A DNA stretch of 64,000 nt, taken from assembly GCA_021107855.1 (NCBI GenBank), contig JAIORZ010000011.1, forward strand, positions 71,686 through 135,685, given 5' to 3'. Positions 12,127 through 42,461 of this stretch are shown here, piece by piece. The notes under the pieces were generated by a model that did no database searches, was not told the origin of the DNA, and saw only the letters and a list, made by a program, of their open reading frames with translations. A program made the position numbers and the translations under genes. The DNA comes from an archaeon. GTDB taxonomy: Archaea > Nanobdellota > Nanobdellia > Pacearchaeales > GW2011-AR1. Position 1 is the stretch's first letter, and every line of letters starts with the position of its first letter.

Positions 12127-12139
12127 CTTTTATGTTTAA

Positions 12140-12267: not shown

Positions 12268-12277
12268 TAACTCATTA

Positions 12278-14353: not shown

Positions 14354-15115
14354 TTACCTAATTCTTATTCTTTGTTTAGGGTAAATCTTGGTTGGAGCTA
14401 TTTTCGGATTGAGTTTTTTGAGCTCCTGTTGTGAAAGATTGTTCCTTTCCCCTATATTCCAAAAGGTGTCTCCTCTTTTTACTGTGTGATAACTATTTGT
14501 TTTGGAGGTTCTTTTAGTTTTGGAGGTTTTTCCGTCTATAATTTCTCTTGCGCTACAATCATATTCGTTTCCTAAGTCGTCTAAGGAAATTTTTTCCATT
14601 CTGTCTACGTATTTATGATAAAAAATTAGTTTGCCGTCATTTCTTTTTCCTACGAAGGTTGCTGTATGAGTATATCCTGCCCCTTCTTTTTTTGCTTTCT
14701 CATTGTAGTCACTGTGTGGGTTGTAGAATCCGACAATCATCCCAGGTTCTAGTGTTTTATCTGCCAGTTCCCTTAGGTCTTTATTCCCGTTAACTTGGGC
14801 TATAACTTTGTTTTTGTCTCCAAGCTTCCAGGCTTCCGCATAAATCATATCTTTTTTATTAAATGCGTCTATTGCAGCAAGAACTGAATAGCCTGTACAG
14901 TTGGCTCCATATCCTTCGTATCTTGTATATTGCGGTGCTCTTCGGAATTCCTCTGCAGGTTTTTCCCTGTTTGTTGATTGTATTAGGGGTTTTTCTACAT
15001 ATCTTTCGATACCTGTAGGGGCTGGCTGTATTCTTATTTGTCGATAAGGGGAACAACTTAGAAAAGTCGCAGCTACGACAGGGATTGCCAGTAGAGATAA
15101 TAGCTTATTTTTCAT
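14354..15115 (-). CDS. Lipoprotein with NlpC/P60-like domain and LysM
   Basis: This is a 253-residue exported protein. The chosen ATG at 15115 starts a signal peptide (MKNKLLSLLAIPVVAATFLSC) with a lipobox-like end at C21; a longer frame from 15163 would hide it. Residues about 65-185 look like a papain-fold cysteine hydrolase of the NlpC/P60/CHAP group: GANCTGYS with candidate nucleophile C73, YTHTATFVG with H150, and FYHK with H167. Residues 208-253 form a LysM domain (YHTVKRGDTFWNIGERNNLS...), which binds N-acetylglucosamine polymers. Known relatives cut peptidoglycan stem peptides, which archaea lack. The substrate is therefore open: bacterial wall, or a surface polymer of this cell. A TATA box 26 bases upstream supports the start. 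Confidence 0.8.
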   Translation of the reverse strand: MKNKLLSLLAIPVVAATFLSCSPYRQIRIQPAPTGIERYVEKPLIQSTNREKPAEEFRRAPQYTRYEGYGANCTGYSVLAAIDAFNKKDMIYAEAWKLGDKNKVIAQVNGNKDLRELADKTLEPGMIVGFYNPHSDYNEKAKKEGAGYTHTATFVGKRNDGKLIFYHKYVDRMEKISLDDLGNEYDCSAREIIDGKTSKTKRTSKTNSYHTVKRGDTFWNIGERNNLSQQELKKLNPKIAPTKIYPKQRIRIR

Positions 15116-15135
15116 GTTGTTATTAGGGGCTTCTA

Positions 15136-15145
15136 GTTTATAAAG
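15136..15145 (-). promoter_or_regulatory. TATA box for LysM lipoprotein gene
   Basis: CTTTATAAAC on the minus strand is centred about 26 bases before the ATG at 15115, which fits leaderless transcription from that codon and argues against the upstream in-frame start at 15163. Confidence 0.6.
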
Positions 15146-15251
15146 TTTACTATTTGTTGTCACTCTGCTGTAGTATCTTTTAAATAAATTTTGTGGAACA
15201 ACTGATTTTGAAAAGTTATTTTTTATGCAAAAATCCGACGGGAGTAATAAT

Positions 15252-15287: not shown

Positions 15288-18200
15288 ATGAGTTATAAAA
15301 GAGTGGTGAAAAAAAATGGGAAAGTTTACGGACCTTATGTTTATGAGAGTTATCGGGATGAGGATGGGAATGTTAAGAAAAGGTATTTAGGGAAGCAGAA
15401 AGTTAAGAAGAGTTTTTCTTTGGTGAGTGCTTTTGTGGTGGGTGTTTTTGCTTTTTTGCTTTTGCTGGGGGTTGGTTATACCACAGATTTTTACTTGAAT
15501 GATGGGCAATCTTTTGGGAGATTAACGGGGTTTGTTGTTGATACACCTGAGGAATCTATTATTTCAGAAGTTGAGCCTGAGCCTGAAATTGTTGGAGTGG
15601 TTGAACCGGAATTGGATGAAGAGGTTGTTGAGGATGAGAGCGGAGAAAGTTCTGTTGAGGATGTTGTTGAAGAAGTTGAATCGGAGACTGTTGAGGCGTT
15701 GCTTGAAAATGGGAGTGCTGATGAAGAAGTTAATGAATCTGTTGAGGTGATTGAAAATGTTTCAGAAGTCGTTGAGGAAATTAATGAAAGTGTTGTTCCT
15801 ATTGTGAATGAAAGTTTTGTGAATGAAAGTTTGGTAAATGAATCTGTTGAGAATGTTTCGGAAATTAATGAAAGTGTTATTCCTATTCTGAATGATAGTT
15901 TGATGAATGAAAGCGTCTTGAATGTTTCTGTGATTTCTACTTTGCAATATAAGGCTGTGATTGGGCGGCCGGTTAAGTGGATTAAGAGGGTTGATGTTGA
16001 TGGGGATTTGTCGGTTGAGTTGCCTAAGGGTTCGATTAATATTTCGGTTTTGACTGATGAAGAAGTTGAGGAGGCGGAGAGGGAACTTGAAGATTTTGAA
16101 GGCGTTGTTGAGAAGGTGAATCGTGAGGATTTGAGCGAGGGGGTTGTTTTAACTGGGAATGTTGCTTTGGATCTGGAGGAAGGCGATGGGATTTTGGTTC
16201 GGTTTTGGGAATGGTTGACTGGGTTTACAATTACTGGGAATGTTGTCTTTGAAGAGGAGCTCGGGGATGATATTGTGGAATTAGAAAATGTTACGATTGT
16301 GGAGCTTGGGGGGGTTGTCAATAAGACAAATGCTAGTGAGGTTGCGGTTGAGTATTATACTCCTGGTCCTGTTGCGAATGAGAGTGTTTTGGCGAATGGG
16401 AAGCGGATTGTGGTTTCGGGGAATGGTGATTTTAATTATACCGAGATTTTGGCTTATAGTTTGGTTGATGCTGAGATTGGGATGGATGATTCGAAACTTA
16501 GGCTTTATTGGTATGAAGGTGAGGACGAGGATTATGATTTAGTTGGGTTGTTGGAGAATGGGGTTTCTGGTGATAGGAAGGCTGTTGATTTTGTTCGTTA
16601 TGATTTTGATGGTGATGGATTTGTTGATTATGTTGAGTGGGTTGTTCCGCATCTGTCGGCGCAGGTTTATGAGTTGATTTATATTGTGAAGGCTGAGCAT
16701 TTGGATGAGAATCGGAGTTTTGTCGCGGATGTTTATGATTGGGTAAAGGCGCAGGATGATAATTATACTAATATAGGGGATGGAGAGTTTTTGAGGGTGA
16801 CGTTCGAGAGGGAGTTGGATAGTTCTAGGGATATTACTTTGTATGCTCGTGGTTCTGAGAATTCGAGTGTTGAGGTTTTCGTCGTTGATAGAAATGAGAG
16901 CTTGGCTGTTTTTGGGAATGTTTTTGAGGAGGATTGGTATAAGATTTATTTGACTGAGCTTGTTGGGGTTGAGGATGTGTTTGACTTGAGAGTGAGTGGG
17001 GATGTTTGGTTTGATTATGTTGTTGATCCTACATATACTTGTTCTAGCTGTTCTTCTTGTTCTGAGTATATTCAGAATTCTTCTGCTGGTGATATTGTTA
17101 GGCTTACGGCGAATATTTCTGGGCAGGATGGGCATTGTATAGAGTTTGCTGGAAAGGATAATATAATTTTTGATTGTGATGGATATGAGATAGTTGGGGA
17201 TGGGGATAATAATGGGCGTGGGATTTATCTGGATACAGATTCAGATAATAATACAATCAAAGGTTGTACAAATGTAAGTGGTTTTCAAACTGGCGTTTTT
17301 GTTTATTATTCTGATAATAATACTTTAACAAACATCGCTGTGAGTGATAATTCTTATACTGGTTTTTATTTCATTTATTCTGATAATAACAATTTTACAA
17401 ACAGTGTTGCCAATGATAATAGTTTTAATGGTCTCTATTTCACTTATTCTGAAGGTAATAATTTATCTAATCTAACTTTGCAGGAAAATGGTCAGAATGA
17501 TTTTCAGATAAGTGCCAACGTGGTTTCTTATTGTAACAATATAGTTGAAAATATCACGGGCTCAGGAGGTAGAGCAATTGAATATTATAATTATTCTGTT
17601 AATCTTCAGGATAAAGTTTTATCCCAGCTGATTCTTTGTAATGCAGACTCATCCAATATCACCAATGTAACGGTTATCGGTTCAGACACTCTTGATAATA
17701 ATGGGATTATTCTCTCTTTAGTGGACGATGTAAACTTTACAGATATAAATTCCTCAGAAAATTATGATGGCATTTATACATATGCTTCTGACAATAATAT
17801 CTTTACTGATATTACTACCAACTCCAATGCTCAAGATGGTATAGATATGACTTCTAGTCATAATACCCTTATTAATATTATTGCTAATAATAATGATATG
17901 CGTGGAATTTATCAAGGCCCTAACTCTCTAAATAATACCTATATTAATCTGACTCTACAGGAAAACACCAATTATGATTTTTACATATCTACCAATACAG
18001 AAGCCAGATGTAACAATATAGTCGAGAATATCACAGGCTCAGGAGGTAGAGCAATTGAATATTATAACTATTCTGTTAATCTCGAAGACAAAGTGTTATC
18101 ACAATTAATTCTTTGCAATGCAGATTCATCCAATCTTACCAATATAACTATTAAAGGCTCAGATAGTCTTGATAATAATGTGCTTTCTCTTGTTCTAACA

Positions 18201-21200
18201 GATAATGCAAACCTTACAAATATTAATTCTTCAGGAAATTATCATGGTTTTCATTTCTATCATTCTGATAATAATATCTTTACCGATATCATTACTAATG
18301 ATAATTATCATGGTCTTTACTTCGATTCTTCTGATAATAATACCTTTACCAGTGCCACTGCTAATGACAATGATTACTATGGTTTCATGTTAACTCAAAA
18401 CAACAACAACAACATTTTCTTTGATTGTATTGCTAATGATAATCGCTACGGTTTCTATCTTTCTTCTTCTTCTAATAATAATATTACTAATGCCACTGCC
18501 AATGATAATACATATCATGGTATTAATTTTTGGGGGGGATCTCAATATAATATAATAAATGATTCCCATATAGAAAGCAATTCTCAATATGGAGTTTATT
18601 TGCGGGTAGCAGGTTCAAATTATCCGAGGTATAATACTTTTTATAATAACTATTTTAACAACACGGTGAATATTTACTCTGATAATATTAATAATAGTAA
18701 TTACTGGAACATAGAACATAACGTGGTCACGAATCCTAGTTTTGAGTCGGGGGCGGGTGCTATTGCTGCTTCTTGGACAAATAGTACTGCGGCGGAGAGG
18801 GCAAGTGATAAGTCTAAGGTGGATTCTTATTCCATGAAATTTGTGGCACCGACTTCTGCTCAGGCCACTACGCAGGCTGGTATTCCGGTAGATGCTAGTA
18901 CAAATTATACGCTTTCAGGTTGGGCCTGGAACAGTCTGAATTCAAGTACTTCTGCATATCTTGACTTGGCTGATATAGCGGAGGAATGTCATGCATTTTC
19001 AACTCAGGGAAATGACGATTGGGAGTATGTAAGTTGTGAGTTCACGACAGGTGTAGCAACAACTTCTCTTACTGTGAGGATGGTTACTGATGGGGGGAGT
19101 ATAGGGAGTAATACGGGCGATGTTTGGTTTGACCATATTAGAATTGAGCCAAAACTTGATTGTTCTTCGGGTCCTAATATTATAGGTGGTTCTTGCATAG
19201 CTGGGAATTATTGGACTGACCCTTCGGGTGGGAATTTCTCTGACACATGTAATGATTTTAATGGTGATGGTATTTGTGATTCTCCTTATACTCCGACTAC
19301 AAATAATACAGATTATCTTCCGTTGATAAATGATGTTGATGCTCCGTTGATAACTTGGGAAAACCCTACTCCTTCTGATGGCAACATAACTACTAACGAT
19401 TGGGTTTATCTCAATGCGACGGTGACGGATAATTCTATGACGTCCGGTTTTTTTGATTGGGATTATTCTCTTGTTGGTTATTGGCCGATGGATTATTATA
19501 ATTCTTCTGGGGTTTTTGATAATTCTAGTTATGGTCATTTTGGAACTTTTGAGGGAGAGGTGGGTGTTGACAATTTGACGGCGGGTAAATATGGCAAGGG
19601 ATTTGAGTTTGATGGGACTAGCGATTATCTTTCGGTAGCTGACCATTCGTCGTTAGGTGGTATGAGTTCGTTGACAGTTATGGCATGGGTAAATTATGGT
19701 GGGTTGACTGCGGCACACAATGATGTTGTCCAGAAGGAGAATACGTATAATCTTAGGATGAGTTCTACGGAGATAGAATTGTATGTTTATGATGCTGGTG
19801 GTTGGGTTAGGGTGGCTTATGCTCCTATAAGTGCGCTTTCTACAGGCGAATGGGCGCATGTCGCGGCTGTTTGGACTGCAAATTCTGCGGGGAGTATATA
19901 TGTGAATGGTGAAGATGTGACTTCTGGTGGGACTTCTCAAGAAGGACCTGCAGCGGATAATTCAAATGCATTTACGATTGGGGGCAGGGGTGGGACTGAG
20001 TTTTTTAATGGTTCTATGGATGAGGTTAGTGTACATTCTCGTGTTCTCTCTCCAGAGGAAATCAATGCTTCTTACAACAACAATGTTTATCGTCTCGAGG
20101 GTAATATTACTGGGTTAGCAGGGGGAGAATATAATTATTCTGCTTATGTGATTGATTCTGCGGGGAATTTGAATATTACTGGTTATCGGGAGATTGAGGT
20201 TTGGGACCTTGATGCTTTTAAATCTCAATGGAATACGAGTAAAAATTCTACGGGTTCGTCTAATGTTACTACAATTAGTTTGCCGTTGGAGGATGGAGGA
20301 AATTATAATTTTACTATTGATTGGGGAGATGGGAACATTACAACTGTCACCGCATACGATAGTGTGAATGCGACGCACGATTATTTGACGGAGGGAGTTT
20401 ATGATATTTCTATTTCGGGAGTTATTGAGGGGTTCAGATTTTATAATGGGGGGGACAAATTGAAGATTATAGACATAAGTCAGTGGGGGGCGTTGAGGTT
20501 GGGGAATGGTGGTGACTATTTTCGTGGTTGTGGGAATTTGGATTCGAGTGCGACGGATGTTTTGAATTTGAGTGGGACGACTGATTTGAATAATATGTTT
20601 GGTTCCGCTACGACTTTTAATGGTAACATATCAAATTGGGATACATCAGATGTTACAGACATGGGTTATATGTTTCATACTGCCTCGTCTTTCAATAGTG
20701 ACTTATCCAACTGGAACACATCAAGTGTTACAGTTATAGATCACATGTTTACTTATGCCTCAGTTTTTAATAGCGATTTGTCAAATTGGGACACATCAAA
20801 TATTATAGATTTGGGTGGTCTGTTTAATTATGCCTCGTCTTTCAATGGCAACATATCAAGCTGGAACACATCAAATGTCGTGTACATGGATTATATGTTT
20901 GACCATGCCTTTGACTTTAATGGCAGTATGTCCAACTGGGACACATCAAATGTTGCAGATATGTATTATATGTTCGGTTATAGCTCGGATTTTAATCAAG
21001 ATATATCAAACTGGAACACATCAAATGTTATAACTATGGGGTCTATGTTTAGTAATGCAGAAAATTTTAATGGTAATTTATCCAACTGGGATACATCAAA
21101 CGTCGCAACTATGAGTTATATGTTTCGTTCTGCTTCAGATTTCAATGGCAACCTATCAAACTGGGACACATCAAATGTTACAACCATGTATGGTATGTTT

Positions 21201-24200
21201 CGTTCTGCCTCATCTTTTAATAGTAGTCTAGCAAGCTGGAACACGTCAAAAGTTGAGACCATGGCTTACATGTTTTCTTCCGCTTCAGACTTCAACGGCA
21301 ATATATCAAACTGGGATACATCAAGTGTCATGAGTATGAGTTCTATGTTTTCTTCCGCCTCAGATTTCAATAGAAACCTATCCAACTGGAACACATCAAG
21401 TGTTACAAGTATGTATATTATGTTCGAATCCGCTACATCCTTCAACGGCAACATATCAAACTGGGACACATCAAACGTCACAGATATGAGGAGTATGTTC
21501 CGTTCCGCCACATCTTTCGGTGGCGACCTATCAAGCTGGAACACATCAAAAATTTGGAGTATGAGTTGGATGTTTTATTCCGCTTCTTCCTTTAATAGCG
21601 ACCTATCAAATTGGGACGTCTCGAGTGTTACGACTATGGAACGTATGTTTAATTCTGCTTTGGTCTTCAATAGTAACCTATCAAATTGGGACGTCTCGAG
21701 TGTTACGACTATGGATTATATTTTCAGTTATGCTTCGGACTTTAATGGCAATATATCAAATTGGAATACATCAAATGTTGAAGACATGAGTACTGCGTTC
21801 TTCCGAGCCACATCCTTCAATGGGGATATATCCAACTGGAACACATCAAGCGTCACAACTATGTATTATATGTTTCATTCTGCCTCATCCTTCAATCAAG
21901 ATATAGGGGACTGGGACGTTTCAAATGTCACGACTATGGTTCGTATGTTCGATAATGCTACGTCCTTTGACCAAGACATAGGGGATTGGAATGTTTCGAA
22001 GGTTGGAGATATGAGTTATATGTTTGAGGATATTGCTTTATCGCCGGAGAATTACGACTCTTTGCTTATTGGCTGGGAGGGTTTGTCGAGTTTGCAGAGT
22101 TCTGTTGTGTTTGATGGTGGGGATAGTCAGTATTGTTTAGGAGAAAGTGCCCGGACTAGTCTTGATACTGGGGCTTATGATTGGACGATTACGGATGGGG
22201 GGCTGAATTGCACTTTCCCAAATATTACGGATATTATTGTTATTAATGAATCGGATGTTACAGATGGAATTATTATGAGGGGGGATAATGTGACGATTAA
22301 TGTGACCTTGGAGGATGATTATGGGATTGATAAGGTTTGGGTGAAGGTTTGGGAGGGAGTTGTTGGGGCGAGTAGTGTGCTTTATGAGGGGTTCTTGACT
22401 TTGATTGGGGCGATTTGGACTGTGACATTTGGGACGAATTCGAATTTTAATTTTGGGGAGGTTAATTATACAATTTATGTTAATAACAGCGAGGGGGAGG
22501 AGGTTAATGAGAGTGGGAATTTTACTCTTAGTGACTCATCGATTACTTGTGTTAATTGTTCGGATTGTAGTGATAAGATAGCGAGTGCGGGGGCGGGAGA
22601 TACGGTTAGACTTACGGCGAATATCACTAATTATGCAGGACTTGACGATGATACCGATCCTGGGGAAACTTGTATAAAATTTGGAGGAAAAGACAACATA
22701 ACATTTGATTGTGATGGGCATGCTATAAGTGGGGATGGGGATAATGACGGATATGGTATTTGGTTGAATGAGTCTGGTGGGGGCTCAAATGGAAACACGA
22801 TTAAGGATTGTGTTGATATAAGTGATTTTGATAATGGGATTTACGTTCGAGAGTCTGATAATAATAATTTAACGAATATAAATACTTCAGATAATGCTTA
22901 TTCTGGGGTTAATCTTTATTATGCGGATAATAGTAATTTAACGGATATAACTTCTGATAGAAATGTTTATGGGTTTTATCTATATCAGTCAAATGGAAAT
23001 ACACTGAAAGATATAAATGCTTCGAATAATGATCCTTATGGAATTTCTCTTGCTTATGGCTCTGGAAACAATAGTATAATTAACGCAAATATAACTCCTG
23101 GATATAGAGAAGAAGGAATCCACACGAGTCTTGCTTCAACGATACAGCGTAATAGTGTAGCTAGTTCTGTTTATGTAAATAATAAACCAGTTCAATATTT
23201 TGATGGATATTATAAGGTTTGCCCCGACAATCAAATTCTTGATTATAATGATACTTATTCCCAAATTATGTTTGTTGGTTGTAATAATATAACTCTCAAT
23301 TCGGCGGAGCCAGGAGATGGGCTTAAACTTTGGCATACTGATAATTCAAGTATAAATAATATAAATTCGGTGGATGCACGTTACGGCTTAGAATCTTATC
23401 ATTCCGACAATAATAATTTCTCCAATTTAACTTTTCCGGGCGCTGAGTATGGATTGGCGTTAAGTTATAGTGAAGGAAATATATTTAGCGATATGACTTT
23501 AACTTCTAATGTTTTTGGGATAATGATTGTCCGAATTAATGATAATTCTTTTAGTGATGCTATTATTTCGAGCGCTAACAGTAGAGCAATTACTTCTCAG
23601 AATGCCCCATATAATAATTTTACTAACTTTACTATTTCAAATAATGAGTATGGAGTTTATTTTTTAGGAAATTGTAGTTGGAATTACTTGTCTGATTCTG
23701 TTATAAGTGGCTCTACTGCGGCAGGGATTTATTTTTATAAGAGTAGTGGGATTTCCCCTCTTTATAGTAGATTTTATAATAATCATTTTAATAATAGTGT
23801 GAATGTTCTTTCGAATAATGATTCTAATGAGAACTACTGGAATACTACTAAAACTTTGGGAACGAATATCCTCGGGGGAGCTTATGTTGGTGGGAATTAT
23901 TGGACTGACCCTTCTGGTGGGAATTTCTCGGATGATTGTTCCGATATCGATGGTGACGGTATTTGTGATTCTCCTTATACTCCGACTACAAATAATACAG
24001 ACTATTTGCCACTGACTGATGTTGCTCCGGGGCATCCTTGTGATTCTTGTGATTCTTGTTCGGAATATATTCAGAATTCTTCTGCGGGGGATGTGGTTCG
24101 ACTTGTCGCAAATCTTACTGCTACCGGTTCTTGTATAAATTTCAATGGTTCGGATGAGATTACATTAGATTGTGATGGTTTTAAAATAGTTGGGCCTAAT

Positions 24201-36200: not shown

Positions 36201-39200
36201 GGGACAACTGATTTGAATTATATGTTTGGTTCCGCCTCGGCCTTTAACGGCAACATTTCAACTTGGAATGTGTCAAGTGTTACGGACATGAGTTTTATGT
36301 TCCAGTATGCCTCGTCTTTCAATGGTAGTTTGTCGAGTTGGGATGTATCAAGTGTTACAACTATGAATAGTATGTTTTATGCTGCCAATTCCTTTAATAG
36401 TAGCTTGTCAAACTGGGACACATCAAGTGTCATAAATATGAATAATATGTTTACCAATAATCCAATCTTCAACGGCAACATATCAACTTGGAATGTTTCG
36501 AGCGCCACAATCATGAGTGGTATGTTCTATAATGCCGATGCTTTCAATGGTGATATGTCAAACTGGGATACCTCGAGTGTTACGACTATGGCTTCTATGT
36601 TTCACTCTAATTCAGGTTTCAATGGAGACATATCAAGCTGGGATACCTCAAGCGTCATAGCCATGAATTCTATGTTTCAGTCTGCCTCAGCCTTCAATGG
36701 TAATTTGTCAAATTGGAATACGTCGAATGTTTCAACCATGCTTTCTATGTTTGAATCCGCCACAGCCTTTAATGGCAGTTTGTCAAATTGGAATACGTCA
36801 AATGTTACAACGATGTATAGGATGTTTTATGGCACTCCGGTCTTCAATAGTAACATATCAAATTGGGATACCTCAAAGGTCGAGAACATGGATTCTATGT
36901 TCCGCTCTACTTCAGCATTCAATAGTAACATATCAAACTGGGATGTATCAGGTGTCACAGATATGGATTATATGTTTTATTCTGCCTCAGCTTTCAACGG
37001 TGATATATCAGATTGGAATACTTCAAGTCTTATGTATATGAGCGGCATGTTCTATAACACCTTGGTCTTTAATAGTAGTTTATCAAACTGGGATATTTCA
37101 GGCGTTGTAAACATGAATGATTTATTTCGTTCTACCTCAGCCTTTAATAATAACATATCAAGCTGGAATGTATCAAAAATTGGAAGTATGCATTCTATGT
37201 TTCGTGATGCTACGGCCTTTAATGGTGACATATCAAATTGGGACACCTCAAGTCTTACAACCCCGGGCGCCATGTTCTATGGCGCTACAACCTTCAACGG
37301 CAACATATCAAATTGGAATATGTCAAAAGTTGGAAGTTTTGATTATATGTTCTATGGCGCTACAACCTTCAACGGCAATATATCAAACTGGGACACGTCG
37401 GGTGCTACAGGTATGAGTTATATGTTTCAATCTGCCACGGCTTTTGACCAAGACATAGGGGGCTGGAATGTTTCGGGGGTTACAACTATGACAAATATGT
37501 TTCTCAATGTCAAGTTGTCTCCTGCTAATTATGACTCTTTGCTTATCGGTTGGGACAATTTGTCGAGTTTGCAGAATACTGTTACATTTGATGCTGGGAA
37601 TAGTCAATATTGTTTAGGGAATGATTCTAAGCAAAATATTATTGGGAATTATAGTTGGGTAATAACAGATGGAGGGATGAATTGCACTCTTCCTAATATC
37701 ACGGATATCATCATCATCAACGAATCGGGTGTTGTGGATGGAACTATTGGTAGAGGAGATAACGTGACGATTAACGTGACTTTGGAAGATGAGTATGGGA
37801 TTGATAAGGTTTGGGTGAAGGTTTGGGAGGGAGCTGTTGGGATTTCGAGTGTGCTTTATGAGGGTTTCTTGACTTTGATTGGGGCGTTTTGGACTGTGAC
37901 ATTTGGGACGAATTCGAGTTTTAATTTAGGGGAGGTTAATTATACGATTTATGTTAATAACAGCGAGGGGGAGGAGGTTAATGAAAGTGGGAATTTTACT
38001 CTTAGTGATTTGTCATGTGATTATTCTTGTGTTAATTGTTCAGATTGTACGGCTAAAATAGCGGCAGCGAGTGCGGGTGAGACGGTTTGTCTTTCTCAGG
38101 ATATTAATGATGCGACGACTTCTGATTGTATTGATATTGATACTAATGGCATAGAATTTAATTGTCAGGGTAATTTGATAGATGGTAATGATGCGGCTGA
38201 CCGGGCGATAAATGTCCAGAGGGGTTCAAATGAAAATACAAGTGTTACTATTGCAAACTGTGTGTTTTCTGGCTGGGATACTTCAACCATCCAACTTTAT
38301 TATGCGTGGAATAATACCTTGAGAGATATCGATATTATTAGGCAGGCAACGACTAATTATGAGTATGGGATATATCTTTATTATGCCTGGGATAATTTGA
38401 TTGAGGATTTTGATATTAATGAAACATACGGGGGAATCAGTATCACACGGAGCGAAAATAATGATATTAGGAATGGAACTATCAGGGATTCGGGGGCAGG
38501 AATAGGAATAGGAAGTCTTTCCGACTACAATAATATCACGGATGTCTCATTTGAAAATTGTAGCGAAAATGGTATAACAATATCTAGCGGTTGTGATTAT
38601 ATTAATATTGTGAATGCAACGATTAGTGATAGTCAGCAGTATGGTATTAATATTGCGTCGGTTGGTTCGCTAATTGCTAATTCAACGATTACCGGTAGTG
38701 GTTGGGCTGGAATCAGAAATGACCCAGGTGCTTCGTCGAGCATTTATAATAATTATTTAAACAATTCCAATAATATTTTTAATTATGATGGATCGGCAGT
38801 AACCAATTATAATAGTAGTGGGGCAGGAACAAATATTATTGGCAATTCGGGTATAGGTGGGAACTTTTATGCGAATCCTTCCGGGACAGGATTTTCGGAA
38901 ACATGTAATGATAGCAATAGCGATGGTTTTTGTGATATTGCGTTCGTTCATGAATATAATAATTATGACTTGTTGCCGTTGACTTCTGTTGGGAATAATC
39001 CTACGATTAATTATTCTGTTGATGGATGTTATGTTGTGAGCCAGTCTGGTTATTATAATTTGACAGGAAATATAACTAATTCGTATTTTTCAAATTGTAT
39101 TAATCTGCAGTCGGATAATGTGACGTTTGATTGTAAAGGTTTTTATGTGAATGGAAATATTGGGGCGCAATCTCGTTATGGAATGCTTTTCGCAAGGGAT

Positions 39201-42200
39201 AATTATGATTATGCGAATGTGACTATAAAGAATTGTAATTTCAGTGGATGGGCTGTGAGTGCGATAAGGATAGTATATATGGGGGGGGTAGAGATTGAGG
39301 ATTCAAATTTTTATGAACCTGCTAGTGGCGATATGACAATAGATTTACGGTATGGGAATAATATTACATTTGATAATGTCTGGGCTGAAAACCAGTGGTA
39401 TCCGCTCTATTCAGATTATGCTGATAACATAGTTATAAGAAACAGTAGATTTAATTCAAGTAGCTCTGGACTTAGGTTTAATAGTGCTGATAATTTGACA
39501 ATAGATAATACGACTTTCTATGATTCGTCTAGGGGAATATATCTAAGTGGCGGTGATAATATCATTGTGAACCATAGTAATTTCACAAATTGCGCAGGGA
39601 ATGCGATAGAAAAAACATCGGGCAAGATTGAAGTTCATGATACGCATTTTGAAAATAATGGGCGTGCATTTAGAACAGGAGGTGTGATGGAGGGCTCAAT
39701 CTTTGAATCCAACCATATTCTCAACAGTACTTTCCAGGGGGTTAGTTATGGGACAACCAGCGGAACGCAAGATTCATGGCATAATAATTATTTTAATAAT
39801 TCCCAAAATTTTTATTTTACAAGTTATTCATCGGAGTTTCAATTAAATACTTCTAACCAATCGAAATTAAATATTATAGGAAACATGAGTTATGGGGGGA
39901 ATTTTTGGGCCCAGCCAAATGGTCTTGGATTTTCGGAGACTTGTAGTAATTTGGATGGAGATGGTTTTTGTGATGATGATTATTGGATACAGGGCACTGC
40001 GGTGGATATGTTAGCTTTAGTAAATAAGTCCCAGAACCAGACGACAAATTTGACGGGGTGTATGGCGATTCAAACTCCAGGTTATTATACCCTTGCGAAT
40101 GATATAGATAGTGATGCGGCGGAGATATGTATTGATATTGCGTCTGATGATGTAATATTAGATTGTAAGGGTCATTCCCTTGATGGAAATGGAGTTGGGC
40201 TGAAAGGAATTTATGCGTCAAGAGCGGTGCAAGTTTCGGCAAATATTACAATTATGAATTGTACTTTATCGTCATGGACGCAAGAAAATATATATTTAGG
40301 AAGGGTAGATGATGTTGGAATTTTTGATGTGGTGAGTGCCAATACGTCGGGGGGTTCTGATGAGTGTATTTATTTAGCATTTTCAGATAACCTTATTTTA
40401 GAGAATGTAGATTTGGATGATTGTTATATAGGTCTGCTTACTCAGTATAGTGAATCGCAAAATATTACTAATGTCAATATTAGTGCAACTTATATAGGAT
40501 TATATCTGGCATCACCCTCGACAAATCATTATATCGATTCGGTTAATACTGAAGGGGGGACATATGGTATTTGGGCCTATGGGGATAATCATGTTCTCAA
40601 GAACGTCAAAATAAATGGTTCGACAACTGGTTTTAGGATGCAAACAGCAGATAATATTTTGTTGGATAATCTGACGATATACGATTGTACCACGGGGTTA
40701 TATTATTATTCTAATATTGATAATGCAACGCTTGCGAATAGTACGATAATGGATTGTTCTTCGTGGGGTGTTTACATAGCTACTTCTGGGGCGACTAATC
40801 CGAACATATTTACAAACAACTTTTTCAATAACACTAATAATGTTCAGTTTGCCGGAACAATTTATAATAATACATGGAATCAGAGTAAAACTTTAGGAAC
40901 TAATATATTTGACGGTCCTTATCTTGGGGGGAATTATTATGCGACGCCTAGTGGGACGGGACATTCTGAGGTTTGTAATGACACTAGTCTGGTGGATGGT
41001 ATCTGTGATGAGTATTATAATTTGTCTGCTGGCGGGAATAAGTCGATTGATTGGTTGCCGTTGACTAACTATACTAACGTTCCTCCGAATATTACGGATA
41101 TCATCATCATCAACGAATCGGGTGTTGTGGATGGGACAATTTTACAGGGAGACAATGTGACGATTAATGTGACTCTGGAGAGTGAGTATGGAATTGAGAA
41201 GGTTTGGGTGAAGGTTTGGGAGGGGGTTGTTGGAGCGAGTAGTGTTCTTTATGAGGGGTTCTTGACTTTGGTTGGGGCATTTTGGACTGTGACGTTTGGG
41301 ACGAATTCGAGTTTTGGTCCTGGAGAGGTTAATTATACGATTTATGTTAATAATAGTGGAGCGGAGGAGGTGAATCAGAGTGGGAATTTTACTATTAGTA
41401 CTGATAATTTTGCGCCGAATGATGTGACACTGGTCTTAGTTTCTGTTGATGATTTAAATTTGACGACGAGTGATTTGAATTGTTCTGGGGTCGTTAGCGA
41501 TGATGATGGTGATAGTTTGAATGTTTCAGTGAGGTGGTATAAGAATTCAGTTTTGAATTTGTCGGTTAGTTATAATAATGATTATACGAATGGGACGGAG
41601 TTTAGTGCGATTTTGAATTCTGGGAATACGAGCAAGGGAGAGGATTGGAATTGTTCTGTTCGGGTTTATGATGGAGTGGGATATGGTAATTGGAGTAATT
41701 CTAGTGAATTGGAAATTTTAAATACTTTACCGACGGTGAGTTTGGATATTCCTGATGATTGGAATTCGACAACGAATAGGACGCCGGAATTTAGTTGGAT
41801 GGGTTATGATGCGGATGGGGACAGTATGACTTATGAGATTAATATTAGTGAGCATTTGTTTGCGGGGGCTAAGTTCTGTAATGACGATAGGTCGAATGAT
41901 AGTTTAAGTTCGGAATCCCATATCCCTTCTAGTGATTTGCTTTGTTTGCATGATAATGGTTATTATTATAATTGGTCGGTTAGGGCGCATGATGGGACTG
42001 GCTGGGGAGAGTGGTCGAGTATTTGGCATCTGAATGTGACGGCTGAAATTGATGTGAATTTGAGTGTTAATGATGTTAGTTTTGGTTCGTTAGATTTGGG
42101 GGAGATTGAGAATACGAGTGATGATAACCCGGGTCCTTTTGTGTTGGATAATGATGGTAATGTCGTCGTGAATATTTCTATTAATTCGTCGCAGTTGTGG

Positions 42201-42461
42201 AGCACTCAGTCTAGTGATAGTTCTTATTACCAGTTTAAAGCGGATAATGTAACTGGGGAGGAAGGGGCGTTTAGTTGGTTGCTTTCGATTGTGAGTTGGT
42301 TTAATATGCCGATTACTGGCGAAGTTGTTGCCGTGGGTGAGTTGAATTATGCCGACGGGGATGATAGTGTTGAGGCTGATATTCGGTTGGAGGTTCCTCC
42401 TGCTGAAGCGCCTGGGGTTAAGAATGCGACGATTATATTTACGGGGGTGCTGGCAGAATGA
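15288..42461 (+). CDS. Giant modular surface protein A (9057 residues)
   Basis: The uninterrupted frame starts at the ATG at 15288, chosen because of the TATA box and the motif MSYKRVVKKNGKVYGPY. A cytoplasmic basic segment precedes one transmembrane helix (residues 43-65). Then comes an acidic stretch rich in NES sequons. Modules in order by base: beta-helix 17.0-19.3 kb with an inserted carbohydrate-binding-like domain; LamG 19.4-20.2; 19 BspA repeats 20.6-22.0; Ig-like 22.2-22.5; beta-helices 22.5-27.0; LamG 27.0-27.9; beta-helix 28.0-29.2; LamG 29.5-30.1 and 30.1-31.1; beta-helices 31.1-33.9; LamG 33.9-34.9 and 34.9-35.8; 17 BspA repeats 36.2-37.5; Ig-like 37.7-38.0; beta-helices 38.0-41.1; Ig-like 41.1-42.0; conserved C-terminal domain. 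It has no C-terminal membrane helix. The role is likely attachment or cell contact, inferred from the modules. Confidence 0.9.
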   Translation: MSYKRVVKKNGKVYGPYVYESYRDEDGNVKKRYLGKQKVKKSFSLVSAFVVGVFAFLLLLGVGYTTDFYLNDGQSFGRLTGFVVDTPEESIISEVEPEPEIVGVVEPELDEEVVEDESGESSVEDVVEEVESETVEALLENGSADEEVNESVEVIENVSEVVEEINESVVPIVNESFVNESLVNESVENVSEINESVIPILNDSLMNESVLNVSVISTLQYKAVIGRPVKWIKRVDVDGDLSVELPKGSINISVLTDEEVEEAERELEDFEGVVEKVNREDLSEGVVLTGNVALDLEEGDGILVRFWEWLTGFTITGNVVFEEELGDDIVELENVTIVELGGVVNKTNASEVAVEYYTPGPVANESVLANGKRIVVSGNGDFNYTEILAYSLVDAEIGMDDSKLRLYWYEGEDEDYDLVGLLENGVSGDRKAVDFVRYDFDGDGFVDYVEWVVPHLSAQVYELIYIVKAEHLDENRSFVADVYDWVKAQDDNYTNIGDGEFLRVTFERELDSSRDITLYARGSENSSVEVFVVDRNESLAVFGNVFEEDWYKIYLTELVGVEDVFDLRVSGDVWFDYVVDPTYTCSSCSSCSEYIQNSSAGDIVRLTANISGQDGHCIEFAGKDNIIFDCDGYEIVGDGDNNGRGIYLDTDSDNNTIKGCTNVSGFQTGVFVYYSDNNTLTNIAVSDNSYTGFYFIYSDNNNFTNSVANDNSFNGLYFTYSEGNNLSNLTLQENGQNDFQISANVVSYCNNIVENITGSGGRAIEYYNYSVNLQDKVLSQLILCNADSSNITNVTVIGSDTLDNNGIILSLVDDVNFTDINSSENYDGIYTYASDNNIFTDITTNSNAQDGIDMTSSHNTLINIIANNNDMRGIYQGPNSLNNTYINLTLQENTNYDFYISTNTEARCNNIVENITGSGGRAIEYYNYSVNLEDKVLSQLILCNADSSNLTNITIKGSDSLDNNVLSLVLTDNANLTNINSSGNYHGFHFYHSDNNIFTDIITNDNYHGLYFDSSDNNTFTSATANDNDYYGFMLTQNNNNNIFFDCIANDNRYGFYLSSSSNNNITNATANDNTYHGINFWGGSQYNIINDSHIESNSQYGVYLRVAGSNYPRYNTFYNNYFNNTVNIYSDNINNSNYWNIEHNVVTNPSFESGAGAIAASWTNSTAAERASDKSKVDSYSMKFVAPTSAQATTQAGIPVDASTNYTLSGWAWNSLNSSTSAYLDLADIAEECHAFSTQGNDDWEYVSCEFTTGVATTSLTVRMVTDGGSIGSNTGDVWFDHIRIEPKLDCSSGPNIIGGSCIAGNYWTDPSGGNFSDTCNDFNGDGICDSPYTPTTNNTDYLPLINDVDAPLITWENPTPSDGNITTNDWVYLNATVTDNSMTSGFFDWDYSLVGYWPMDYYNSSGVFDNSSYGHFGTFEGEVGVDNLTAGKYGKGFEFDGTSDYLSVADHSSLGGMSSLTVMAWVNYGGLTAAHNDVVQKENTYNLRMSSTEIELYVYDAGGWVRVAYAPISALSTGEWAHVAAVWTANSAGSIYVNGEDVTSGGTSQEGPAADNSNAFTIGGRGGTEFFNGSMDEVSVHSRVLSPEEINASYNNNVYRLEGNITGLAGGEYNYSAYVIDSAGNLNITGYREIEVWDLDAFKSQWNTSKNSTGSSNVTTISLPLEDGGNYNFTIDWGDGNITTVTAYDSVNATHDYLTEGVYDISISGVIEGFRFYNGGDKLKIIDISQWGALRLGNGGDYFRGCGNLDSSATDVLNLSGTTDLNNMFGSATTFNGNISNWDTSDVTDMGYMFHTASSFNSDLSNWNTSSVTVIDHMFTYASVFNSDLSNWDTSNIIDLGGLFNYASSFNGNISSWNTSNVVYMDYMFDHAFDFNGSMSNWDTSNVADMYYMFGYSSDFNQDISNWNTSNVITMGSMFSNAENFNGNLSNWDTSNVATMSYMFRSASDFNGNLSNWDTSNVTTMYGMFRSASSFNSSLASWNTSKVETMAYMFSSASDFNGNISNWDTSSVMSMSSMFSSASDFNRNLSNWNTSSVTSMYIMFESATSFNGNISNWDTSNVTDMRSMFRSATSFGGDLSSWNTSKIWSMSWMFYSASSFNSDLSNWDVSSVTTMERMFNSALVFNSNLSNWDVSSVTTMDYIFSYASDFNGNISNWNTSNVEDMSTAFFRATSFNGDISNWNTSSVTTMYYMFHSASSFNQDIGDWDVSNVTTMVRMFDNATSFDQDIGDWNVSKVGDMSYMFEDIALSPENYDSLLIGWEGLSSLQSSVVFDGGDSQYCLGESARTSLDTGAYDWTITDGGLNCTFPNITDIIVINESDVTDGIIMRGDNVTINVTLEDDYGIDKVWVKVWEGVVGASSVLYEGFLTLIGAIWTVTFGTNSNFNFGEVNYTIYVNNSEGEEVNESGNFTLSDSSITCVNCSDCSDKIASAGAGDTVRLTANITNYAGLDDDTDPGETCIKFGGKDNITFDCDGHAISGDGDNDGYGIWLNESGGGSNGNTIKDCVDISDFDNGIYVRESDNNNLTNINTSDNAYSGVNLYYADNSNLTDITSDRNVYGFYLYQSNGNTLKDINASNNDPYGISLAYGSGNNSIINANITPGYREEGIHTSLASTIQRNSVASSVYVNNKPVQYFDGYYKVCPDNQILDYNDTYSQIMFVGCNNITLNSAEPGDGLKLWHTDNSSINNINSVDARYGLESYHSDNNNFSNLTFPGAEYGLALSYSEGNIFSDMTLTSNVFGIMIVRINDNSFSDAIISSANSRAITSQNAPYNNFTNFTISNNEYGVYFLGNCSWNYLSDSVISGSTAAGIYFYKSSGISPLYSRFYNNHFNNSVNVLSNNDSNENYWNTTKTLGTNILGGAYVGGNYWTDPSGGNFSDDCSDIDGDGICDSPYTPTTNNTDYLPLTDVAPGHPCDSCDSCSEYIQNSSAGDVVRLVANLTATGSCINFNGSDEITLDCDGFKIVGPNINTDPPHKGIYSNITDGADGSTIRNCLNISYFENGIEIQYTDNFTIFNTSPSNNAVGGGYGILLRHTDNSNITNITSFDNRYGIRTDQSDNNTISESNFSYNNYYGVSVEVCENNIFTDIFSQENGFGDFSTLNFAGDDQCNHILTNVTGSGGNPIALYNYTATIEDEVFSHLILCDADNSTVDNVTIEGSATLDNNRFYIRYTENVIVSDIISSNNNYGIYLSSNENLTIRDSMLFDNYNYGIYASSSDNGKFINVTASENSRGIYLSNAHNNTLINITTNSNSGYGIFVGYSENNIITGATAKSNVNGIGLYSSAYYNTINDSRIESNSQYGIWLDWTSSTNYPHDNTLYNNYFNNTVNVYSDNDSNENYWNTTKTLGTNIIGGAYVGGNYWTDPSGGNFSDDCSDIDGDGICDSSYSPVTNNTDSLPLTDVTPGHPCDSCDSCSEYIQNSSTGSFVRLTVNITNYAGLDDDTHSGETCISFGGKDNITFNCDGKIISGDGNNYGYGIWLNNSDGGSNENTILGCVNVSEFYRGVYLEYSDNNTLINITTSDNAYSGVMLSNSDGNALTNITLSYSIWNLYLSGSHKNNLTNIITSDASQTNIVLSASGNNTLDDIAISKDISQRRDGLRTTLYSTILRNNVSNSVTVNGKPIQYFDGYYKACPDNQILDYNDTYSQVTFVGCDNVTLYATEATDATHILHTHNSKIYDINSSNNYCGFRVQYSDNNTFYNLTSSNNYFGFSTRYVDYNNFSKIIFKEGSTPITLDNSDNNTFADIISSECTSSGVYLDASDNNTFINLTLLGLSYGFNFYTASYYNIISDSKIEGSSSRGVNFYGSGTSLPLYNKFYNNYFNNTVNVFSNNDSNKNYWNTTKTLGTNIIGGRYISGNYWTDPSGGNFSDTCTDSDNDGICDATYTPTTNNTDYLPLFPDVIYPQLNFTPPTSDDGKTTTNTSVEINVTIEELNLDEVIYNWNGANYSVMNDSLVLMYNFDNVSALGENDTYVVDVSGSGNDGTVYNGTVMNMTGGKYGGAFEFDGTDDYINCGNDSSLDITDEITISMWLYQEAESTAGGNGVTKEAAYKVGPQSSGKYMLRMETTGGSWADQNITSSSSTILDEWVYLAATYDSVINNSRIYINGDLDTESSILINGTIETSSDMLWIGRGGAPYFNGSIDEVRIWDRSLSADEVYQQYVSNLNKYDTDKWLFYVNQSKNSTEGLGAETYTYQVFASDGRGNWNSTEERSITTNTSVISLSNCSELDEPGNYRLTQDIVNFTLDVCMNITADNVTLDCQGYMIDGDDNGDYGIYTSQAVQAYRNLTINNCSVSDWDTGIYAYRSNYIQLDYSNFSSNVYGIHLYYADYATITDVISENNTDFGLYEVASGYQNISDSKFRNNLGDVRYSWGVECNSNFSNVTGTGDLPIVYYNSQVTLENWDNNFSEMILCGADNSVLNNISLSRNNNLGSSIFVYTSDNVNVSNVSINNVGTSLRVYDSNYLNLTNSTFTNMSSSRGVYVASSDDLYVDNITVSGSSGLIISDTNDAVVKDSYFINNTDTGLDVVSWGSSFNNSIYNNFFNNSDNVDLAGNENYNFWNTTNQIGAKIYGNGANIGGNFYAGLSGIGFSETCQDFDKDGFCDSAFNITNEVECTAGVDCFVNATDYLPLSSYDSDSPLIISINESVSTYTAIISVVSNEYVNLTVSYGKTVSLGDVSNDSEFSLSPDASLSDLEMLTLYYYNVTICDLYSNCNESGPHNFTTENSSLTEGLIVYIDFEEGNGSLGATFEDKSGHGNNGTVTTSSVPITTGMVGDYALDLLPSGYVNIPYDSSLDSSNMTLSVWLTNNDSASNTYAYLRKTGEWHLRKGGGDWDFDGEGGLSNYAPHDWDFTTNQNEWHMHTITIDSTNLELRFYVDGEQLGSTNTMNIAKPISSDGIMIGMFSSSFRWIGKLDDVRVYNRSLSNAEVLELYEYSIADSVIPNITFVSPTPENDTITPNTSIGINVSIIEANLDEVIWDWDGTNYSVMNDSLVGMWNFDNVSSLGENNSYVVDSSGYGNDGTWGNSTTGDINWTTGKYDLGIEFDGLDDYIDCGNDSSLSLPIAYTISAWVKPEDLSPSGAIAGKGEETDSPYAGYGMLMDADGGEFRCVTISSAGIGSAYGDVVSTTTFTNGIWYYVTCRSTASSLEIYVDGVSEAIDNTQAANTGSASGSEWIGLTVQDGTSYYLNGSIDEVRIWNRSLSTEEIQQQYMANLNKYDTDKWLLYINQSKNATDGLDDGAYTYQAFAGDESDNWNSTEEREIIVNTSICTTCSNCNSKIVSAGSGDTVKLAADIFGQDGNCINFSGKDNVTFDCDGYDIGGDGDDTGYGIYLSSGSDYNTIKDCTNVSGFGNGLRAVGSDSNTLVNNSVTGEVYGMYFGSASNYNNLTNNLINCTGSYVSGRAGIRLDNADHSNLTNNMIDAANNYGIYFYNGATGNTLVNNSVTTVSRAGVYLYSGSGDSNLINNTVISTSSNGIVVASDDNTLISNIGWVAGSGGGIYLNGASNINLTGNNGTSNLGSGIYISSSSNYNNLTNNVGVSNSSVGIRVYSSWNNTLTNNTGMSNSSSGIYIHYGGGHNLTDNIVRSETNVGLQIRDADYNSISRLNSSVTSGGLGIFIYDGLYNNFTDCVYLDAEIDAHIDDSIFDGYSTGNIFLNCSYDSELVNGTESSLIRKWYFEERVNNSVGYLSGAGVNVTNSSSVNIFSELTNSSGEVSRAELVEYINLGGTKTFATPHVVNTSKADYTTNSSSYNLSVEENVFVWVILGEYIECVNCSDCNSKIASASSGDIVYLAEDIVGHDSTCLEFNGADNFTFDCNGHIINGDDSSGSRAVRSNNSNGGSDNIIIQNCHNISSFRRGMVFDDSQNITIYNVTLSDMSDGIWGYGIDIEDSSSVTINNSRIYNVGDGLSIDSSSQNVEVYNSNFSGNLAQAVSISSSGTNCYHKFVNVSVGSGNPLVYYNNTQGLLIENNDSIGQLILCEVDNSTIRNITMQNQDGITLSSSDNNTINDSIINGSGFTNLHLVRYSKLNNITDSYFGYAYRNMILDNSENSTFDDLIIDSATNLNVEILSWNDGGEYNLFDNVTVKHGTFNIQGCDYNTIKNSRFTDSTISLNSAGSYDPENNTFYNNIFNSTNNVENLDNITNFWNISKTAGTNIIGGAYLGGNFWTNPVGTGWSDNCTDSDGDGICQIEYNITGNNTDWLPLYLDAIYPQLNFTPPTPDNDTTTPNASIEINVTIEELNLDEVVWNWDGTNYSVMNNSLVLMMNFDNVSALGENDTLVVDVSGSGNDGTVTNAVVNTTDCKFGNCFSFDGNEDRVDLGSFDEQENISEFSISLWIKPFTTIPSEIVDTIFYKSGSGDDCMFLRWEDNQNIEFRVYAPGNVAYTGSFTDGITDTNWYHVVGVLDGTNVSIYVNGVKGDVSPAWPTGNKTQTCSHNLIIGEEGTGGFNGSIDEVRAWNRSLSASEIQQQYMSNLNKYDTDKWLLYVNQSKNATDGLDDGAYTYQAFAGDESGNWNSTEKRVITIQEDITYPQLNFTPPTPDNDTTTPNASIEINVTIEELNLDEVVWNWDGTNYSVMNNSLVLMMNFDNVSALGENDTLVVDVSGSGNDGACSSNCPALNSSGRFGSSFEYSSSSGTAISIDHSSSLNITDNITISAWIYPVGWGENEQGSIVDKAYDTAYAFYMDNNTGGERVKFASDNIGIAQVSTSNSIDLNEWQHVVVTYNRSYVQFYLDGETNGGGAETAAMGTNSIDLLIGADINGYSYGFDGLIDEVKIWNRSLSAEEVRQLYFINLNKYDTDKWLLYVNQSKNATDGLDDGAYTYQAFAGDESGNWNSTEKRMITIQDESSYFNSQWNTANPGTSNSTTIELPLEVDGNYNFTVDWGDGNSTTVLAYDSVNATHDYLVEGTYNVSISGTIEGFRFNSGGDRRKIIDISQWGNLNVGNNSAYFYGCSNLDVSATDVLDLTGTTDLNYMFGSASAFNGNISTWNVSSVTDMSFMFQYASSFNGSLSSWDVSSVTTMNSMFYAANSFNSSLSNWDTSSVINMNNMFTNNPIFNGNISTWNVSSATIMSGMFYNADAFNGDMSNWDTSSVTTMASMFHSNSGFNGDISSWDTSSVIAMNSMFQSASAFNGNLSNWNTSNVSTMLSMFESATAFNGSLSNWNTSNVTTMYRMFYGTPVFNSNISNWDTSKVENMDSMFRSTSAFNSNISNWDVSGVTDMDYMFYSASAFNGDISDWNTSSLMYMSGMFYNTLVFNSSLSNWDISGVVNMNDLFRSTSAFNNNISSWNVSKIGSMHSMFRDATAFNGDISNWDTSSLTTPGAMFYGATTFNGNISNWNMSKVGSFDYMFYGATTFNGNISNWDTSGATGMSYMFQSATAFDQDIGGWNVSGVTTMTNMFLNVKLSPANYDSLLIGWDNLSSLQNTVTFDAGNSQYCLGNDSKQNIIGNYSWVITDGGMNCTLPNITDIIIINESGVVDGTIGRGDNVTINVTLEDEYGIDKVWVKVWEGAVGISSVLYEGFLTLIGAFWTVTFGTNSSFNLGEVNYTIYVNNSEGEEVNESGNFTLSDLSCDYSCVNCSDCTAKIAAASAGETVCLSQDINDATTSDCIDIDTNGIEFNCQGNLIDGNDAADRAINVQRGSNENTSVTIANCVFSGWDTSTIQLYYAWNNTLRDIDIIRQATTNYEYGIYLYYAWDNLIEDFDINETYGGISITRSENNDIRNGTIRDSGAGIGIGSLSDYNNITDVSFENCSENGITISSGCDYINIVNATISDSQQYGINIASVGSLIANSTITGSGWAGIRNDPGASSSIYNNYLNNSNNIFNYDGSAVTNYNSSGAGTNIIGNSGIGGNFYANPSGTGFSETCNDSNSDGFCDIAFVHEYNNYDLLPLTSVGNNPTINYSVDGCYVVSQSGYYNLTGNITNSYFSNCINLQSDNVTFDCKGFYVNGNIGAQSRYGMLFARDNYDYANVTIKNCNFSGWAVSAIRIVYMGGVEIEDSNFYEPASGDMTIDLRYGNNITFDNVWAENQWYPLYSDYADNIVIRNSRFNSSSSGLRFNSADNLTIDNTTFYDSSRGIYLSGGDNIIVNHSNFTNCAGNAIEKTSGKIEVHDTHFENNGRAFRTGGVMEGSIFESNHILNSTFQGVSYGTTSGTQDSWHNNYFNNSQNFYFTSYSSEFQLNTSNQSKLNIIGNMSYGGNFWAQPNGLGFSETCSNLDGDGFCDDDYWIQGTAVDMLALVNKSQNQTTNLTGCMAIQTPGYYTLANDIDSDAAEICIDIASDDVILDCKGHSLDGNGVGLKGIYASRAVQVSANITIMNCTLSSWTQENIYLGRVDDVGIFDVVSANTSGGSDECIYLAFSDNLILENVDLDDCYIGLLTQYSESQNITNVNISATYIGLYLASPSTNHYIDSVNTEGGTYGIWAYGDNHVLKNVKINGSTTGFRMQTADNILLDNLTIYDCTTGLYYYSNIDNATLANSTIMDCSSWGVYIATSGATNPNIFTNNFFNNTNNVQFAGTIYNNTWNQSKTLGTNIFDGPYLGGNYYATPSGTGHSEVCNDTSLVDGICDEYYNLSAGGNKSIDWLPLTNYTNVPPNITDIIIINESGVVDGTILQGDNVTINVTLESEYGIEKVWVKVWEGVVGASSVLYEGFLTLVGAFWTVTFGTNSSFGPGEVNYTIYVNNSGAEEVNQSGNFTISTDNFAPNDVTLVLVSVDDLNLTTSDLNCSGVVSDDDGDSLNVSVRWYKNSVLNLSVSYNNDYTNGTEFSAILNSGNTSKGEDWNCSVRVYDGVGYGNWSNSSELEILNTLPTVSLDIPDDWNSTTNRTPEFSWMGYDADGDSMTYEINISEHLFAGAKFCNDDRSNDSLSSESHIPSSDLLCLHDNGYYYNWSVRAHDGTGWGEWSSIWHLNVTAEIDVNLSVNDVSFGSLDLGEIENTSDDNPGPFVLDNDGNVVVNISINSSQLWSTQSSDSSYYQFKADNVTGEEGAFSWLLSIVSWFNMPITGEVVAVGELNYADGDDSVEADIRLEVPPAEAPGVKNATIIFTGVLAE
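18721..19155 (+). other. Carbohydrate-binding-like domain inserted in a beta-helix module
   Basis: Within giant protein A, the segment VTNPSFESGAGAIAASWTN through GDVWFDHIRIEP reads like a CBM4/9-type jelly roll: a start of the form NxSFE, a Trp, and a final DVWFDxxRIE strand. It sits between the usual YWN motif and the NIIGG...GNYW cap that are adjacent in sister modules, so it is an insertion into the module end. Confidence 0.6.
20595..22019 (+). repeat. 19 tandem 75-bp units (BspA/DUF285-type), giant protein A, first array
   Basis: Each unit encodes 25 residues of the form MFxxAxxFNxxxSNWxTSxVxxMxx. Counting from the ATG at 20595, 19 units of exactly 75 bases reach 22019 without any length change. 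A capping segment (SPENYDSLLIGW) follows. Units commonly contain an N-glycosylation sequon at NVT/NTS or N-x-S. Confidence 0.93.
33932..34148 (+). repeat. 217-bp block duplicated at 34892-35108
   Basis: This encodes the start of a LamG module (QLNFTPPTPDNDTTTPN to the VSALGEN segment). It appears identical to 34892-35108, exactly 960 bases later. The following LamG core differs strongly between the two copies, and identity resumes near 34720/35680. Confidence 0.88.
34892..35108 (+). repeat. Second copy of the 217-bp block from 33932-34148
   Basis: This is the same sequence at an offset of 960 bases. A further identical stretch covers the end of each module (34720-34859 and 35680-35819), with a related copy near 30950-31080. 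Confidence 0.88.
36222..37496 (+). repeat. 17 tandem 75-bp units (BspA/DUF285-type), giant protein A, second array
   Basis: Seventeen 25-residue units run without length variation, ending at a truncated unit (MFLNVKLSP) and the NYDSLLIGW cap. Units here favour FNGNIS and FNSSLS variants. The array follows a segment of the form TVDWGDGNSTTV that also precedes the other three arrays. Confidence 0.93.
42031..42461 (+). other. Conserved C-terminal domain of giant protein A
   Basis: About 140 residues from TAEIDVNLSV through FGSLDLGEI, SWLLSIVSWF, ITGEVVAVGELNYADG to the final GVLAE. It is nearly the same as the end of giant protein B and is followed, as there, by an overlapping downstream gene. 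It looks like a beta-sandwich and contains no membrane helix. It is a candidate docking or sorting domain. Confidence 0.75.

Follow-up and report, generated by a model that had tools for sequence, protein, structure and literature searches.

A 9,057-residue surface protein encoded in the window (the whole 64,000-nucleotide stretch of archaeal DNA analysed here) ends in a domain that it shares with a second giant protein encoded close by, and both genes lie upstream of genes for membrane proteins that resemble bacterial WxLIP. Our preferred reading, to which we give a probability of about 0.7, is an archaeal display system of the WxL/WxLIP-like kind, in which a giant multi-module adhesin would be docked by its C-terminal tail on a WxLIP-like membrane partner. 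The DNA itself shows the open frame with its modules, the tail common to both giants, and how strictly this tail is linked to, and paired with, WxLIP-like genes.

The host belongs to the Nanoarchaeota and is of the Pacearchaeota type. It is known from a 936-kb MAG that is 85% complete, and the window lies inside a 396-kb contig. Giant surface protein 1 occupies one stop-free frame at 15288-42461 (+), which makes up 2.9% of the assembly and confirms the unbroken 9,057-residue frame of the original prediction. Stops number 529 and 1,371 in the other two frames of the same strand and 306-684 in those of the opposite strand. With all five other frames full of stops (306 to 1,371), a chance open frame is therefore ruled out. 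Starting instead at ATG 15225 would give a frame of 9,078 aa (15225-42461, +). However, a homology comparison shows that relatives of the N-terminus begin at the equivalent methionine (MSYKRVV/MAYKRY-type), and ATG 15288, with its 9,057-aa product, is therefore the likely better start. The protein has a computed mass of ~991 kDa and a pI of ~4.05, and it contains 457 N-x-S/T sequons compared with a mean of 218 and a maximum of 246 in shuffled sequences. Hydropathy reveals a single strong hydrophobic helix, at approximately residues 39-68 of the 9,057-aa protein, with the next peak (1.64) just over the threshold. The proposal of one N-terminal membrane helix in front of the modules thus holds. 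That the protein would be among the larger ones to be expected was a fair statement, yet other proteins reach this size. Frames of 9,180 and 9,660 aa with the same tail domain at the end exist in two further genomes of the phylum, and a surface protein of 9,409 aa, SVXNc_0300, is known from a nanohaloarchaeon in culture (PMC10266531, excerpt). A class-level relative (L102+L103, G076:C23) has a reported open frame that is larger still, at 12,056 aa, and rich in N and T.

Profile searches with Pfam support the beta-helix, LamG and BspA modules claimed for giant 1, with scores far over the cut-off. Specifically, there are two DUF285 arrays, six Laminin_G_3 domains and five blocks of NosD/Beta_helix right-handed beta-helix, so that all three types of adhesin module (BspA/DUF285, NosD-type beta-helix and LamG) are combined in one 9,057-residue chain. 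The Ig-like units have no Pfam name. The protein starts with a basic cytoplasmic N-terminus (MSYKRVVKKNGKVYGPYVYESYRDEDGNVKKRYLGK) and the membrane helix (15288-15491; all features of giant 1 are on the + strand), delimited by hydropathy and by comparison with relatives. This unnamed module, YGPYxYESYRD...YLGK followed by a membrane helix, is borne by many different proteins. Then come an acidic stalk and an unnamed beta-rich region without a Pfam match (15492-17054), a beta-helix block (17055-19427), LamG domain 1 (19611-20066) and the first DUF285 (BspA-like) array (20536-21896). Tandem repeat analysis gives the DUF285 arrays a 75-bp period. An Ig-like unit with the motif NITDIIVINE, recognized by eye and without a Pfam name (22221-22556), leads into a beta-helix block of three modules (22557-27092), LamG domain 2 (27309-27767), another beta-helix block (27969-29387) and LamG domains 3 and 4 (29388-31112). 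These are followed by a beta-helix block of two modules (31113-34007), LamG domains 5 and 6 with Ig-like lead-ins (34005-35867), the second DUF285 (BspA-like) array (36163-37426) and a last beta-helix block of three modules (38037-41030). At the C-terminus lies an unnamed domain of 138 aa, a predicted beta-sandwich, that is common to both giants (42045-42458).

Taken together, Pfam, hydropathy and the named relatives support an archaeal, modular and surface-exposed protein. This part of the original prediction therefore stands, but it overlooked the tail domain, the second giant (46827-57893) and the WxLIP-like genes at 45279-46466 and 57890-59080. Downstream of giant 1 all of the following genes are on the + strand. 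The gene for a 735-aa secreted protein with a PKD domain, a beta-helix-like part and a dockerin-like end (42458-44665) has a start that overlaps the stop of giant 1. After it comes MID, a name coined here for the conserved single-pass membrane protein whose gene separates the large-cargo and WxLIP-like genes (44725-45282), and then WxLIP-like membrane protein 1, of 395 aa (45279-46466). A 90-aa ORF separates the latter from giant surface protein 2 (46827-57893), which has 3,688 aa, a signal-peptide-like start, and DUF285 and beta-helix modules. Giant 2 is without the N-terminal module of giant 1 and has a cleavable-looking signal, and it keeps the same tail (57477-57890). Overlapping its end is the gene for WxLIP-like membrane protein 2 (57890-59080), whose 396-aa product is 66% identical to protein 1. 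A third WxLIP-like gene, of 345 aa, runs past the end of the window (63350-64000; L104:36-1073).

The surroundings contain several other features. Dockerin-like C-terminal ends are found at 44500-44665 and 61480-61607 of the window (three places in the host genome). Divergent from giant 1, at 14354-15163 (-), is the gene for a LysM-domain protein with a lipoprotein-like start (Pfam LysM E 1.7e-12), and a 1,937-aa protein without a Pfam match, encoded at 3-5816 (+), has an end that by eye resembles a lysozyme/lytic transglycosylase domain. Between tRNA-Leu/TFB and the giant locus sits a low-GC island (7021-13366) with an AAA/DUF4143 ATPase, two PDDEXK nucleases, a C5 DNA methylase and a DDE transposase. 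Just behind the WxLIP-like cluster, L104:7219-10061 (+) presumably holds MoxR-type ATPase, DUF58-like and VWA-like genes, and ~10 kb beyond the window (L104:11109-11726, -) is a gene with a Tat-like signal whose sequence we take to be reminiscent of SleB-type cell wall hydrolases.

The last 138 residues of giants 1 and 2 are the same domain, with 74% identity. Proteins carrying this tail range from ~200 to >9,000 aa, and 22 related tail domains align well, none of these 22 receiving a Pfam name. AlphaFold2 gave a confident beta-sandwich (pLDDT 92.9 and pTM 0.87 for the best of five models, of which two, at 63 and 58, were poor). At Z 7-8, the solved structures that come nearest to the model include chaperone-usher pilin domains and PapD-like domains, and as far as the model can tell this pilin-like appearance may reflect only a common beta-sandwich arrangement. 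Foldseek with the tail model returned no match under E 0.001, and the long WxL of 9i25 was absent among the best 50 rows, which excludes nothing. As with WxL domains, the tail sits at the very C-terminus, in both large and small protein forms. That it is a true WxL domain is ruled out by motif and by profile: only 3 of the 22 tail domains contain any copy of W-x-L, the paired W-x-L motif of WxL domains is missing, and the PF13731 profile matched 0/22 tail domains at E <= 1 and 0/90 genomes, the Lactococcus lactis control being positive. Sequence searches of solved structures with profiles of the tail, the small protein and the WxLIP-like protein gave nothing significant, and NCBIfam gave no match over the cut-off for the tail, the WxLIP-like protein, MID or the N-terminus.

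Judged by their sequences, the 395-aa protein and its kin appear to be distant relatives of bacterial WxLIP. The Pfam family WxLIP_HBD (DUF3324, PF11797) matches them weakly: E is <= 0.01 in 10 of the 27 members (2e-8 for the strongest), and one member exceeds the cut-off (34.7 vs 28.9 bits). A six-frame search of 90 genomes with the same profile gave 0/90 over the cut-off and 10/90 at E <= 0.001. The second WxLIP family, WxLIP_PGBD (DUF916, PF06030), had no match in the host genome, two control genomes being positive, and is not among the families matched by the 27 members. Likewise, the WxLIP motif NQIDKxxxYFDLK near the N-terminus is, by eye, absent from an 11-row alignment of WxLIP-like proteins. 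All 27 members end in a hydrophobic helix and a basic tail, and 25 of them also have an N-terminal hydrophobic stretch. The model of the 395-aa protein consists of three Ig-like domains and the C-terminal helix (pLDDT 86.1, pTM 0.54). Its best structural row is the E. faecium WxLIP 9i1y_B (Z 13.6, rmsd 10.0, 210 aligned), tied with unrelated Ig-type rows (Z 13.2 and 13.0). In the DALI-like list 9i25_C scores Z 12.1, again alongside tied Ig-type rows, and Foldseek ranked many other Ig-repeat proteins above WxLIP. Named relatives of the partner gene are assigned to Pacearchaeota, Woesearchaeota, other Nanoarchaeota or plain 'archaeon', with 1 of 25 labelled Patescibacteria. This one (L083) bears the full archaeal gene set; it is probably a mislabelled bin, with transfer as the alternative.

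The tail and the WxLIP-like genes are strictly linked. We searched 90 genomes, including the host's own, and found the tail domain in 24 and WxLIP-like genes in 36, and all 24 genomes with the tail also have a WxLIP-like gene (Fisher p 2.8e-13, a value not corrected for shared ancestry). At 28 of the 31 tail places a WxLIP-like gene follows downstream on the same strand, at a distance of <=3,442 bp, and at the other three the contig ends 141-547 bp away. Sampling of 371 genomes over the whole phylum showed the tail in 147, and in 104 of the 243 good ones. Among 20 distant loci, which were hand-picked from the better matches and longer frames of the 147 positive genomes and do not represent a random sample, the WxLIP-like gene lies downstream of the tail in 20/20, with a second pair in 10 and MID, by profile, in 6. 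At two loci (L080 and L085) the WxLIP-like genes at first seemed to be without a large neighbour. Because the upstream stretch, open in all six frames, looks masked, these were not counted as negatives. MID (~160 aa) also belongs to the conserved arrangement: it lies between the large cargo and the partner in 15/15 named loci where the gap could be read (a fragment only in L076), and its profile finds it in 18 named loci and in the window.

In relatives, a second set made up of a small tail-only protein and its own WxLIP-like partner often follows the first. The small tail-only gene of the host genome does not adjoin a WxLIP-like gene, which counts against the docking reading. The 25 named loci contain 17 large-cargo and 14 small-cargo pairs, to which the window adds one large pair; WxLIP-like rows of <340 aa were excluded from the labelling. 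In a tree of 40 WxLIP-like proteins, from which the doubtful row L093_15519 was excluded, one branch (SH-aLRT 97.6) splits the 18 large-cargo partners from the 14 small-tail-only partners, i.e., the label changes once over 32 labelled rows. The partner of giant 1 (45279-46466) groups with the large type. It was not itself labelled as part of a large-cargo pair, being 2.8 kb downstream of the tail with two genes between (0-0.8 kb in most pairs), where the limit used was 2.5 kb; this wide spacing is another point against docking. Synteny may also have preserved the outcome of a single ancient operon duplication, in which case the split between partner types would not reflect physical specificity.

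We infer the following chain of events. Giant 1 would be exported through its N-terminal signal-anchor and would probably be glycosylated. Its C-terminal beta-sandwich tail would dock onto the membrane-anchored WxLIP-like partner encoded downstream, resulting in retention at the surface, and MID would be a further part of the display set. The same tail and partner would serve cargo from ~400 to >9,000 residues. The beta-helix, LamG and BspA-like modules would then reach out to a partner cell or the matrix and bind sugars or proteins there; attachment to a host or partner cell, as in the original prediction, is suggested by the module types and by the clade. With a docking-type tail and WxLIP-like partner genes present, the one membrane helix probably does not do the anchoring alone, and because the N-terminal signal-anchor module exists besides the tail, giant 1 may be held at both ends. 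Archaea do not have murein, which WxL is said to bind, so the membrane that holds the helix of the partner is most plausibly that of the cell itself.

Other explanations have to be weighed against docking. The uncleaved N-terminal helix could alone anchor giant 1, making it an ordinary signal-anchored modular adhesin, with the tail and the WxLIP-like genes as mere neighbours in a surface island. This would agree with the one clear N-terminal membrane helix and its basic cytoplasmic face, and with the presence of the same N-terminal module in 42 of the 90 genomes, on proteins of widely differing length. However, we find it unlikely, given that the tail and WxLIP-like genes occur together in 24/24 genomes and in 20/20 of the distant loci fetched, and that giant 2 retains the tail without the N-terminal module. 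A doubtful but more elaborate alternative takes both the tail and the small tail-only proteins for pilin-like domains, whose fold would be completed when the WxLIP-like partner, or another of these domains, donates a strand. Giant 1 would then be the giant tip adhesin of a donor-strand fibre for partner-cell contact, in a membrane-anchored chaperone-pilin-like system. The tail model resembles the pilin domains of FimG/FimH (Z up to 7.8) and the first domains of the WxLIP-like model resemble the PapD-like chaperones FimC and Caf1M (Z ~11). The likeness is one of fold only, the scores are within the range of common beta-sandwich matches and, unlike chaperone-usher chaperones, the WxLIP-like partner is membrane-anchored.

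The giants could also be products of assembly, with shorter genes or surplus repeat copies fused in frame over near-identical repeats. Giant 1 does contain exact in-frame direct repeats of 216 and 140 bp, and giant 2 one of 348 bp (48896-49243 and 52163-52510) that is a sign of either recent module duplication or assembly risk. Against such fusion, each of the three longest repeats keeps the reading register (offsets of 960, 960 and 3,267 bp), the start and tail modules sit at opposite ends of the giant 1 frame, and the 9,180- and 9,660-aa frames of other genomes end in the same tail, all of which makes an artefact very improbable. Because the exact repeats exceed many short reads, the module copy number of the giants could still be wrong by whole in-frame units (e.g., 960 bp). 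The nanohaloarchaeal giants (SVXNc_0300, SPEARE) are of the same size class, acidic, from DPANN and presumed to act in cell-cell contact (PMC10266531, excerpt), and a secretion straw as proposed for them would suit the size, low pI and surface modules of giant 1. But those proteins are built mostly from Ig-like repeats and carry a VirB4/TraG-like ATPase close to their end (PMC10266531, excerpt), whereas giant 1 has beta-helix, LamG and BspA modules and ends in a docking-type tail. Pfam scans over the whole protein found no ATPase, including no C-terminal VirB4/TraG-like match, and a straw is rejected on this domain content, with hardly any probability left to it.

The preferred reading, a tail docked on a WxLIP-like partner, can be compared with the bacterial clusters, where genes for large WxL, small WxL and WxLIP proteins occur together and AlphaFold suggests that a strand of WxLIP inserts into WxL (PMC10599100, excerpt). 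The archaeal set likewise combines, in one cluster, a large multi-module surface protein with adhesive modules and a C-terminal beta-rich domain, a small domain-only protein, and a secreted partner of Ig-like domains that ends in a membrane helix. It differs in having neither the WxL motif nor a PF13731 match, in a partner model with three Ig-like domains where bacterial WxLIP has two, in the frequent presence of two partner genes that go with different types of cargo, and in the extra conserved MID gene. Because the WxL motif, the WxL profile and the DUF916 profile all fail, we do not file the archaeal set as a member of WxL/WxLIP. Among the matches listed in a search of the open-licence literature there was no archaeal WxL/WxLIP counterpart.

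Giant DPANN surface proteins were already known (PMC10266531, PMC11573180, excerpts). As a giant, giant 1 is thus a new example of a known thing, and its size alone is not new. On the basis of sequence, the tail system appears to be an archaeal variant of WxL-like display that is spread through the phylum, and binding of tail to partner is its predicted step. If this is true, a type of display whose WxL domains have been described as exclusively bacterial (PMC9772566, excerpt) would extend to archaea. As of 2024, the proteins that make up the attachment organelle of a Nanobdellota archaeon in culture had yet to be identified (PMC11420986, excerpt), and the ways in which DPANN archaea retain and employ their largest surface proteins are poorly understood, hence the interest of the tail and partner set. 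The conserved cargo tail and membrane partner also provide small, expressible pieces with which surface display and attachment to a partner can be tested. If its modules are adhesive as their types suggest, the WxL-like tail set would be a likely way for small archaeal cells to hold on to others.
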